Source: a virus
Length of the DNA: 51,659 bases
IMG/VR virus record: IMGVR_UViG_3300046492_000146
Span: 1-51,659 of that record
Direction: 5' to 3' (one strand)
Positions 15,926 to 19,942 of this stretch are shown here, piece by piece. Each line of letters opens with the position of its first letter. Position 1 is the stretch's first letter. The notes under the pieces were generated by a model, which was not told where the DNA came from, searched no databases, and worked only from the letters and a program-made list of their open reading frames with translations. The translations under genes were made by a program, and so were the position numbers.

Positions 15926-16338
15926 TGGCAAACAGACGCGAATTCACCAAGCCAGTCTACGCCGAAATCGTACAGCGCGCGATGCACCCGAAGCTAGGGC
16001 TGTGCTGCGAGGGATGCGGTCTCGTCCTCGGCAAAAAGCCGTATCACGTAGACCACACCATTGCCGACGCTCTGCAGATCGACAAGAGCCGCAAGCTGAC
16101 GGCAGACGACGGAAAGCTCCTTGGCGTCGAGTGCTGCCATAAGCCAAAATCGGTAGTGGACGTCGGCGTCATTGCCAAGGCGAAGCGCGTCGAGGCGAAC
16201 TATCACGGGTTTGCCGCTCCCAAGAAGAAGATCAGATCCGCCGGCTTCCCGGTATCGCAGAAATCCGCGGCTCGGCAGACGAAGATCCCGCTTCCGCCGA
16301 GGGCGCTGTTCAAGCCGGCAGATGAGAGGAATGCTTGA
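15925..16338 (+). CDS. HNH endonuclease (137 aa)
   Basis: Start chosen at MANRREFTKPVYAEIVQRAM, whose ATG overlaps the upstream stop. The zinc/HNH signature is CCEGCGLVLGKKPYHVDHTIADAL, then LLGVECCHKPKSVVDVGVIAKAKR. This type often substitutes for Holliday junction or VSR-like activities in phage operons. Its last base is the first base of the TnpB ATG. Confidence 0.8.
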   Translation: MANRREFTKPVYAEIVQRAMHPKLGLCCEGCGLVLGKKPYHVDHTIADALQIDKSRKLTADDGKLLGVECCHKPKSVVDVGVIAKAKRVEANYHGFAAPKKKIRSAGFPVSQKSAARQTKIPLPPRALFKPADERNA

Positions 16339-17537
16339 TGAAAATCTACCGCAGTTACAAATGTAAGATGGCTCCCGATCCGGCTCAGTCCGAAACGTTC
16401 TCACGTAATGTCGGAGTCTGCAGATTGGTTTACAATCTAGCGCTTGAGCAGCGTCGGGACCATCATCGGCAATTCCGAGCCTATAAGGGCGTCGGCATCT
16501 CTTTCCTCTCACAGAGCCGAGAACTGACACAGTTGCGTGCAGAATTCGACTGGATGCGGGAAGCGATCCATTGCTGTCAGCAACAGGCTTTGCGCGACCT
16601 TGACCGGGCGTTTCAGAATTTCTTCAAAGGTCTAGCGGCATATCCAACGCCTCGCAAAAAGGGGATCAACGATAGCATCTGTTTCCAAGGGCGGGACATA
16701 GCTATCCGCCGACTTAATAAGTCGTGGGGGACTGTGCGTCTCCCAAAGGTCGGTGATGTGCGGTTCCGGTGGACGCGTGACATTGTCGGCTCCATCCGGA
16801 ATGCAACGGTCTGCCTTGACCCTCTCGGGTGGCACATCAGCTTCTCGTCGGAAGTTGAGATTGCTACAGTTGAGAGCACGCTTCCAGCCGTCGGCATTGA
16901 CAGAGGCGTTGTTAAAGCCCTGGCATATTCCGACGGCACGTTCGGCACATTCCCCACGGAACGCCTGAAACATATAGACCGTATCGCCCGCAAGCACGCC
17001 CGCGCGCTATCTCTTAAGAAGATCGGGTCGCGCCGTCGAACCGCAGCGAAACGACGACTTGCTGCCATCAAGGCTAAGGCGGCTCGGGTGCGGAAGCACT
17101 TCAATCATGTAGAGACAGCGCGGTTGGCCAGATCCTTCGGCATTGTCTGCATAGAAGAGTTGAAGACGAAAAACCTGACCGGCTCGGCCAAGGGGACAAT
17201 TGCTGACCCCGGCGTCAAAGTGCGGCAGAAGGCTGGACTGAACCGCGCGATCCTCGAAATCGGGTGGTATCAGTTTGAGCAGTTCCTCACTTACAAGGTG
17301 AATTCCGCCGGAGGAGAGGTCAGGAAAGTTAACCCTGCATATACCAGCGCCACATGCTCTTGCTGTGGCGTCATCGAGAAAACCAACCGCAAGAGCCAAG
17401 CGGTTTACGAATGCGCGGACTGCGGGTCGGTGATTAACGCCGACACCAATGCAGCGATCAACATTCTACAGGCCGGAACGCGGCCATCGTGGAATCGGGT
17501 AGCCGATCCGCGTCAATCTCAACTGGAGGCGGCATGA
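16338..17537 (+). CDS. tnpB: TnpB-family RNA-guided nuclease (IS200/IS605 OrfB), operon-embedded
   Basis: 399 residues starting at ATG (TGATG overlap with the HNH stop). The N-terminal OrfB_IS605 helix-turn-helix is MKIYRSYKCKMAPDPAQSETFSRNVGVCRLVYNLALEQR. The RuvC catalytic residues are all present: Asp188 (VGIDRGV), Glu273 (CIEELKTKNL) and Asp369 (NADTNAAINIL). The zinc finger CSCCG (340-344) and CADCG (359-363) is intact. No TnpA gene lies beside it. Neighbours overlap on both sides (1 and 4 bases), leaving no room for ordinary transposon ends outside the frame. The protein family is a guide-RNA nuclease whose RNA normally arises from its 3' end. Domestication is inference. Confidence 0.9.
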   Translation: MKIYRSYKCKMAPDPAQSETFSRNVGVCRLVYNLALEQRRDHHRQFRAYKGVGISFLSQSRELTQLRAEFDWMREAIHCCQQQALRDLDRAFQNFFKGLAAYPTPRKKGINDSICFQGRDIAIRRLNKSWGTVRLPKVGDVRFRWTRDIVGSIRNATVCLDPLGWHISFSSEVEIATVESTLPAVGIDRGVVKALAYSDGTFGTFPTERLKHIDRIARKHARALSLKKIGSRRRTAAKRRLAAIKAKAARVRKHFNHVETARLARSFGIVCIEELKTKNLTGSAKGTIADPGVKVRQKAGLNRAILEIGWYQFEQFLTYKVNSAGGEVRKVNPAYTSATCSCCGVIEKTNRKSQAVYECADCGSVINADTNAAINILQAGTRPSWNRVADPRQSQLEAA

Positions 17538-18472: not shown

Positions 18473-18843
18473 CGATTCTCGATGAAGCAATCTCGCCAGC
18501 CGTCGCCGTTGCCAAGCTTCAAGCGGCCGGCATACAAATCTCGGAACGGACCTTGCGGGAGCGGGCGCGGGCCCTTGGCGCTTGCCGTGTGCTCGGTAAG
18601 GCGATGTTCCTTCTTCCTTCCGATATCGACATCATCATCAATGCTGCCCGACTGGAGCCGAGACAATGCCCAACCTCTACAAAAGGGACGGAAGCGACGT
18701 CTGGCAGTATGACTTCACTGTGGACGGAGAACGATACAGATGCTCTTCTAAGACGCGTGACAAGCGGCTCGCGGAAGACATCGCGATCAAACACGAAGAC
18801 AGGGTCCGTCGTGCTGCTGTCCACGGCGAAGAAGCGGTCCTAA
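18469..18843 (+). CDS. excisionase-like helix-turn-helix protein overlapping the integrase
   Basis: The first 60 residues read as a MerR/AlpA-like recognition domain: SPAVAVAKLQAAGIQISERTLRERARALGACRVLGKAMFLLPSDIDII. This is the form of small recombination directionality factors placed upstream of int. The frame continues for 178 bases into the integrase gene in another frame (Ser/Thr/Lys-rich tail), which is unusually long. The N-terminal domain is convincing; the tail may not be functional. Confidence 0.65.
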   Translation: MTILDEAISPAVAVAKLQAAGIQISERTLRERARALGACRVLGKAMFLLPSDIDIIINAARLEPRQCPTSTKGTEATSGSMTSLWTENDTDALLRRVTSGSRKTSRSNTKTGSVVLLSTAKKRS

Positions 18844-19631
18844 CCTTTCCCGAAGCTGTCGCGGAATATCTGAACGACGGCAAGGACGGCAGATTCCTCG
18901 CGGAACTCATCAAATATTTCCGCAAATGGAAAATGAAGGACATCACCGGGCCCGAGATCCGCAAGGCCGCCAAGATCATCTACCCAGATGCTTCGCCTGC
19001 GACATGGAACCGCCAGGTTATCACGCCGACGCGTGCTGTGATCAACCATGTTGCCGAGGCAAAGCGGTGGCCGAAGATATCGGTCAAGCGGTTCAAGGAA
19101 GAACGGAAATCGCGGCCGGCCGGCGACAAGGTGTGGCTGGAGACATTCTGCAAGACCGCGAAGAAGCTGGATATGCCCGAAACGGCCGCTATTGCCCGCT
19201 TCATGTTCGAGACAGCCACGCGCGTTTCCGAGGCTTGCCGCATGACATGGGATGACGTCAGCCTTCAGGAGCGTGTGGCCTATCTGGAGAAGACCAAGAC
19301 CGTCCCGCGCAAAGTGTTCCTGACACGCGCCATGGTCGTCGACCTCGCCAACATCCGCAGCCTGTATCCCGTCCTCGTCTTCGGAGCCGCCAACCGATCG
19401 ACGGTCAAGAAGCGCTTCGACAAGGTCATCACGGCCGCCGGCATGAAGCGGCTGACCAGCCACGAAATCGGCAGGCATGGCTTCGCTACGGAGATGATCG
19501 TCCGCAATGGCGTCGACATCGCGACGACGGCGGATCACGGCGGTTGGAAGTCACGCCGGCTGCTGATGGAAAGCTATGTGGAGGGGGATGCGGATCGGGA
19601 AGTTATCGACCGCGTTTTTGGCAAGAAATGA
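18666..19631 (+). CDS. int: tyrosine recombinase integrase (321 aa)
   Basis: The N-terminal arm-binding region (LYKRDGSDVWQYDFTVDGERYRCSSKTRDKRLAED) is typical of phage integrases that use an SH3-like/beta-sheet arm domain. The core-binding helices follow. Catalytic residues: Arg186 (ATRVSEACRMTW), Lys-rich beta hairpin YLEKTKTVPRKVFL, His266/Arg270 (SHEIGRHGFAT), His291 (ADHGGWKS) and nucleophile Tyr304 (LLMESYV). It should recombine the attP carrying a tRNA-Ser half located about 100 bases downstream. Confidence 0.93.
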   Translation: MPNLYKRDGSDVWQYDFTVDGERYRCSSKTRDKRLAEDIAIKHEDRVRRAAVHGEEAVLTFPEAVAEYLNDGKDGRFLAELIKYFRKWKMKDITGPEIRKAAKIIYPDASPATWNRQVITPTRAVINHVAEAKRWPKISVKRFKEERKSRPAGDKVWLETFCKTAKKLDMPETAAIARFMFETATRVSEACRMTWDDVSLQERVAYLEKTKTVPRKVFLTRAMVVDLANIRSLYPVLVFGAANRSTVKKRFDKVITAAGMKRLTSHEIGRHGFATEMIVRNGVDIATTADHGGWKSRRLLMESYVEGDADREVIDRVFGKK

Positions 19632-19733
19632 GACCGTTTGACACGCTGGAGTCACAGTCTGGTGCCGAAAAGATTTACATTGACAGGAAAAACGAGTATT
19701 ATCAAATGGTTGATGTGGTTCCGGAAGAACTTA

Positions 19734-19781
19734 TATACTCCCTTAGCAGGGGAGCGCCTTCGACCACTCGGCCACCTCTCC
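19734..19781 (-). other. attP: attP core: 5' half of tRNA-Ser(GCU)
   Basis: On the minus strand, 48 bases read as a tRNA-Ser from G1: acceptor strand GGAGAGG, U8, D arm (GCCGAGTGGTCGAAGGC) and a complete anticodon arm CTCCC-CTGCTAA-GGGAG, with anticodon GCT at 19745-19747, then TATA. After this the sequence diverges: no variable arm, T arm or 3' acceptor strand is present. It is therefore a half gene matching the host tRNA up to and just beyond the anticodon stem. That is a known class of integration site, at the anticodon arm. Confidence 0.88.
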
Positions 19782-19790
19782 GGTGCGGCC

Positions 19791-19819
19791 CTGATAGGCG
19801 GAATCACCTTGGTGATCAA
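19791..19819 (-). promoter_or_regulatory. phage-borne promoter for the reconstituted tRNA-Ser
   Basis: On the minus strand TTGATC (-35, 19814-19819), 17-base spacer, TATCAG (-10, 19791-19796). The predicted start near 19784 is about 3 bases before G1 of the tRNA. The -35 and spacer overlap an inverted repeat ATCACC/GGTGAT. Confidence 0.65.
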
Positions 19820-19942
19820 GAGGTTTTTCGATCTTTTCGACAAAATGGCGTTTCCGCTATCTTGCAGGTTCACGCGGCTGAAAACGGAACGTCGCGGGAA
19901 CACGTTGTCACAAACGGCACAAATTTGGCACAGCAGGTTCTA

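Follow-up and report, generated by a model that had tools for sequence, protein, structure and literature searches.

The window analysed here, a 51,659-base virus record taken at its full length, is a tailed phage with genes for integrase, endolysin, terminase and head-tail proteins, and close behind its integrase gene lies what an earlier note had read as the 5′ half of tRNA-Ser(GCU) preceded by a promoter. This raises the question of what becomes of a host tRNA gene when the integrating phage brings its beginning, and hence its promoter, rather than its end. The note's premise that phages using tRNA genes mostly carry the 3′ part is right, as passages of PMC11476347 report that 77 of 88 S. 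meliloti elements match a tRNA 3′ end, with the 5′ end also on record (9 of 88). The relevant part of the review PMC8371274, citing Williams 2002, states that rebuilt bacterial tRNA genes retain their promoter with very few exceptions; the tRNA 5′ half is what the pTN3-like integrases of archaea use (PMC8371274; PMC5495485). According to passages of PMC12429752, gene 016 of S. meliloti, a tRNA-Ser(GCU), is the target of several phiLM21-like prophages; a promoter swap is not discussed in those passages or in the passages of PMC11476347. Our literature search for phage-supplied tRNA promoters in bacteria returned none, only the archaeal work (PMC5495485, PMC8371274), Williams 2002 being known to us through PMC8371274.

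Our analysis makes it very probable that a temperate rhizobial phage has its attP at this locus, that the anticodon stem-loop of tRNA-Ser(GCU) is where its integrase recombines, and that the phage carries the 5′ half of that gene together with a tRNA-type sigma-70 promoter. Two features define the locus.

18666 to 19631, plus strand: tyrosine integrase, 321 aa (Pfam PF00589, E 8.9e-18; PHROG integrase)
19734 to 19781, minus strand: 5′ half of tRNA-Ser(GCU), positions 1–48, the attP core (48/48 identity to host)

The core begins 105 bp beyond the end of the integrase gene. Read on the minus strand from 19781 to 19734 it is GGAGAGGTGGCCGAGTGGTCGAAGGCGCTCCCCTGCTAAGGGAGTATA (anticodon GCT), and past that point the resemblance to a tRNA ends. 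Two lysogens, Rhizobium sp. BK313 (L026) and another one (L036), each have an intact tRNA-Ser(GCT) gene predicted by ARAGORN, and the core agrees with both genes at 48/48 positions; an exact 48-base match is far beyond chance. The half therefore runs, as first described, from G1 through the whole anticodon arm before diverging, and it is the same as a rhizobial host gene. The Rfam tRNA model scores the core at 26.6 bits (E 0.0013, starting at 19781 on the minus strand), below its cut-off of 29; ARAGORN calls no complete tRNA in the window and nothing there reaches an Rfam gathering score, as expected since only half a gene is present.

Integrases 71–99% identical to that of the window were found at 17 viral loci and 4 genome loci, and two isolated Rhizobium phages have integrases 81–88% identical to it; a tblastn search of plasmids gave distant integrases only. 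All related loci of sufficient length have the core behind the integrase, at a distance of about 110 bp except in L007, where about 150 bp extra separates the two (about 260 bp in all). The nearest relative by integrase (G005) has its sequence trimmed at the core. Elsewhere in the window, in the phage early region, a 400-aa ORF (16335–17537) resembles by eye a transposon-type TnpB/OrfB-like protein, with a zinc-finger end (CSCCG...CADCG).

The core includes the anticodon stem-loop CTCCC-CTGCTAA-GGGAG, which is presumed to be the region of strand exchange. Core identity stops just 3′ of CTGCTAA in three relatives (G128, G193 and G004), which places the exchange at or before the anticodon loop, and we infer that strands would be exchanged within its 7 bp.

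Since the window is a virus record without a host, its own integration is inferred from relatives. In BK313 the core occurs at 2227203, at the integrase end of a prophage, and again at 2164337, 62.9 kb away. The tRNA half at the integrase end follows CTTGCGTCGATAAATGATTGGCCGTATCAGGGCCGCACC, a promoter of the type found in uninfected relatives; the far end has an intact tRNA-Ser, and upstream of it lie another promoter, CTTGCAATCCTAAGCGCATCACCATAGTTAGGCCGCACC, and phage arm repeats. The direct repeat flanking this prophage is 54 bp long and comprises the nine bases before G1 and tRNA positions 1–45. When the two host flanks are joined at the core, they match an unbroken stretch in two uninfected genomes, G482 (91%, query 3–243 of 245) and G412 (89%, query 3–245 of 245), and the contiguity in uninfected relatives holds over 797 nt. 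The same arrangement is seen in R. lusitanum (L032 intact, L025 integrase end) and in a 52.7-kb IMG prophage, G008 (L036 intact, L030 integrase end), whose intact-end promoter, CTTGATC-16-GTATCAGG, resembles that of the window. Thus prophages with related integrases do sit at tRNA-Ser(GCU), and in all three the host promoter and 5′ half have been swapped for the phage copy, as had been proposed: an intact tRNA-Ser is rebuilt at one junction (L026, L032, L036), and upstream of it lies element DNA that includes the promoter elements. An ARAGORN call at L022 2346–2442, which corresponds to the L025 site, is false, as it spans the orphan 5′ half into phage DNA. A tRNA-Gly(TCC)-like gene with a weak score (35.5 bits, G001:C1:2205667-2205735) also lies inside the BK313 prophage.

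Comparison of these relatives indicates that integration of the window phage would place the host promoter, with an orphan 5′ half, beside the integrase end of the prophage; at the far end, phage promoter, phage 5′ half and host 3′ half would together make up a full tRNA gene. One could suppose instead that this is ordinary 3′-type integration read in the wrong orientation, with the intact tRNA retaining its host promoter. That layout is the commonest one (77/88 S. meliloti elements in the passages of PMC11476347), and it occurs close at hand in Rhizobium phage phiU, which has a related integrase (39%) and similar GGCACA repeats near its site; unlike the window phage, phiU carries, by eye, the 3′ half of the tRNA after its integrase, so that the host promoter is kept. 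In the relatives of the window phage, however, it is the intact gene that has phage arm repeats upstream and the fragment that has host sequence upstream, and uninfected genomes have the two host flanks as one unbroken stretch, which leaves a misread orientation scarcely credible. The window phage carries positions 1–48 where the classic attP carries a 3′ half, and in its relatives the host promoter is displaced.

The case for a carried promoter rests on the segment upstream of G1.

19791 to 19796, minus strand: putative -10 hexamer TATCAG of the carried promoter (layout kept in phages and hosts)
19814 to 19819, minus strand: putative -35 hexamer TTGATC, 17 bp from the -10 (CTTG in 10/10 diverged phages)
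19821 to 19828, minus strand: A-rich tract directly upstream of the -35, a possible UP-like element (conserved)

On the plus strand the letters are GATCAA at 19814–19819 and CTGATA at 19791–19796, giving TTGATC-17-TATCAG on the minus strand; the order upstream of G1 is CTTGATC, 16 bases, CTATCAG and 9 bases. The element that the earlier note had placed about 10 bases upstream is thus present as described, ending 9 bases before G1 of the tRNA half. Its hexamers match the consensus modestly (4/6 at -35 and 4/6 at -10), and a generic promoter scan of the window did not list it; the support comes from comparison rather than from consensus score. In a comparison of ten phages whose promoter regions are less than 80% alike, CTTG at -39 to -36 is present in 10/10 and the 17-bp spacing to the -10 is also invariant. 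Mean pairwise identity in this set is 0.79 for the -35 block, 0.70 for the -10, 0.67 for the A-rich tract and 0.53 for the spacer, vs. 0.33 upstream of -47. Hexamer columns exceed random columns at p = 0.011, a modest value from a statistic that ignores phylogeny. Uninfected Rhizobium tRNA-Ser genes have the same layout of A-tract, CTTG, 17 bp and TATCAG or TAGTTA, and the phage spacer and the displaced host spacer of the same locus match at just 4–7 of 17 positions. The simplest reading of these sequences is that the hexamers are functional and that the bases between them have drifted. The phage promoter would then drive the rebuilt tRNA, its transcript starting a few bases ahead of the gene. 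A second promoter-like sequence, TTTACA-17-TATTAT (10/12), lies on the plus strand just past the integrase gene (19674–19702) and points through the attP core toward downstream genes.

The arms of attP usually hold sites for integration host factor (IHF) or accessory proteins, and candidates of this kind flank the core on both sides.

19907 to 19932, plus strand: putative integrase arm-type sites of the promoter-side arm, GTCACA at 19907, GGCACA at 19916 and GGCACA at 19927 (repeats)
19639 to 19667, plus strand: putative arm-type sites of the integrase-side arm, TGACAC at 19639, GTCACA at 19651 and GTGCCG at 19662 (motif match only)
19700 to 19712, plus strand: IHF-like site TATCAAATGGTTG (WATCAANNNNTTR) (motif match only)

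The promoter-side repeats recur upstream of the intact tRNA in prophages, which identifies that side as phage DNA. The IHF-like site between integrase and core has exact or 1-mismatch matches in most relatives, and GGCACA/GTCACA repeats on both sides together with such a site, all of them motif matches, would fit the usual attP build. This bears on another reading of the conserved GATCAAG...TTTTT, namely that it is mainly an attP site for IHF or an accessory protein and a promoter only secondarily: the element partly resembles the IHF consensus, and GATCAAG could belong to a protein-binding site. Against this, the better IHF match is on the other arm (19700–19712), three loci (L017, L026 and L032) have CTTGCAT or CTTGCAA at this position, which breaks the IHF match while keeping the -35, and host tRNA genes without attP function also have the A-tract-CTTG-17-TATCAG layout. 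We consider a primary role in protein binding very improbable, and retain the promoter reading of the segment.

A different objection is that the upstream segment is a neutral host leftover captured along with the core, the tRNA of lysogens being expressed by read-through or from a weak fortuitous start. Phage–host identity does extend upstream through the -10 hexamer in some hosts, and with type-b hosts it runs through TATCAGGGCCGCACC adjoining the core; the phage promoter of BK313 is moreover 37/39 identical to one beside the tRNA of G459, next to a distantly related integrase, which points to capture or exchange. Yet CTTG, the 17-bp spacing and the A-tract have been kept where the spacer and the more distal sequence have not, and the rebuilt gene is the sole tRNA-Ser(GCT) found in BK313 besides the fragment, so some promoter must work there. 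A neutral leftover is accordingly quite unlikely. Selection would instead keep the phage promoter working because it drives what appears to be the cell's only tRNA-Ser(GCU) gene (a single copy was found in BK313).

Identity that reaches through the -10 suggests that hosts and phages have probably exchanged promoters. The host type in BK313 and R. lusitanum is CTTGCGT..TATCAG, common to uninfected relatives, and their prophages installed another type, CTTGCAA..TAGTTA. The promoter installed in BK313 also resembles that of a second Rhizobium group (L051). Between the two groups (L051 vs. L033) the gene upstream of tRNA-Ser is conserved at about 78% over 608 bp, and the last 140–270 bp, including the promoter, are not alignable; this segment is a possible scar of past promoter replacement. 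More tentatively, phages may shuttle tRNA-Ser(GCU) promoters among rhizobial lineages and elements, some promoters of uninfected hosts being scars of past prophages, a proposal that we hold to be doubtful at present. If true, every lysogenization would replace the promoter of the single tRNA-Ser(GCU) gene by one with an evolutionary history in another rhizobial lineage or element.

At the other junction, the displaced host promoter and orphan 5′ half lie next to the integrase gene and point into the prophage, in antisense orientation to that gene (L025, L030, L033 and L123), which is what the earlier note had anticipated. Antisense transcription into the integrase gene is possible, as no terminator was found between core and integrase. 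A terminator halting the displaced promoter ahead of the integrase gene had been considered and was dropped, none being predicted in the window. Just beyond the core, after the anticodon hairpin (window 19717–19736), the tRNA strand is rich in T across the relatives, which when pooled have 64% T in the first 6 nt past the core on the phage side.

Among the closest parallels is the Thermococcus element pTN3 (PMC5495485, PMC8371274), in which the attP/attB homology (41 bp) is likewise the 5′ half of a tRNA, tRNA-Leu, and the rebuilt tRNA is likewise severed from its original promoter. Its attP, however, is located within the integrase gene, so that integration splits that gene, whereas the integrase of the window family stays whole; and its tRNA is expressed from the integrase promoter (review PMC8371274), whereas the window phage carries a separate tRNA-type promoter. 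With phiLM21-like prophages of S. meliloti the window phage shares the use of tRNA-Ser(GCU), there gene 016 (passages of PMC11476347 and PMC12429752). Another likeness is to the tRNA-dependent lysogeny of mycobacteriophages (PMC10865867), in which the host, once the phage has integrated, likewise cannot do without phage DNA for a tRNA function; those phages bring a complete tRNA gene, and none is rebuilt at the junction. A 5′-half attP with an element-borne promoter is therefore a known but rare kind, of which the window phage is a well-supported new case. An element that rebuilds a tRNA from the 5′ side has to bring the promoter of a gene whose loss the cell may not survive, and this phage family, with several attL/attR pairs and an empty site, is a clean and testable bacterial case. 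It opens the questions of whether levels of a single-copy tRNA are altered in lysogens, whether the prophage is locked in because losing one of its ends is lethal, and whether tRNA promoters pass between species by way of phages.

Examination of more distant integrases shows that the layout extends beyond the window family. In G193 (integrase 46% identical) and G128 (39%), tRNA-Ser(GCU) is likewise rebuilt from the 5′ side, with the intact tRNA and promoter adjoining the integrase gene on the same strand and a second 5′ half elsewhere in the genome. The integrase is on the promoter side in these two and on the far side in the window family, so the 5′-half habit is independent of the side on which the integrase lies. 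Alongside eight further integrases about 37–41% identical (L040, L045, L047, L075–L077, L079 and L080), a tRNA library revealed no convincing tRNA half.

In S. meliloti Ak57, an orphan half of tRNA-Ser(GCU) behind a Sinorhizobium-type promoter lies at 1160837 with an antisense integrase alongside, and an intact tRNA-Ser gene stands behind another promoter at 1214830, 54 kb away. The host promoter and orphan half beside an antisense integrase are as in the window family. Unlike the latter, the Ak57 integrase has 362 aa and is merely 26% identical to that of the window, and no TGTGCC arm repeats were seen beside the promoter. A 369-aa integrase in G459 (L127 416–1525), 69% identical to that of Ak57, immediately precedes an intact tRNA-Ser gene. 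A common 5′-half layout at one tRNA gene is thus found with two integrase types that are distantly related.

In G128, a near-identical phage-type promoter and 5′ half occur twice, 40.7 kb apart (L066 and L071), one copy intact and the other orphan, as though the tRNA gene, with its promoter already of phage origin, had been entered by a second related phage.
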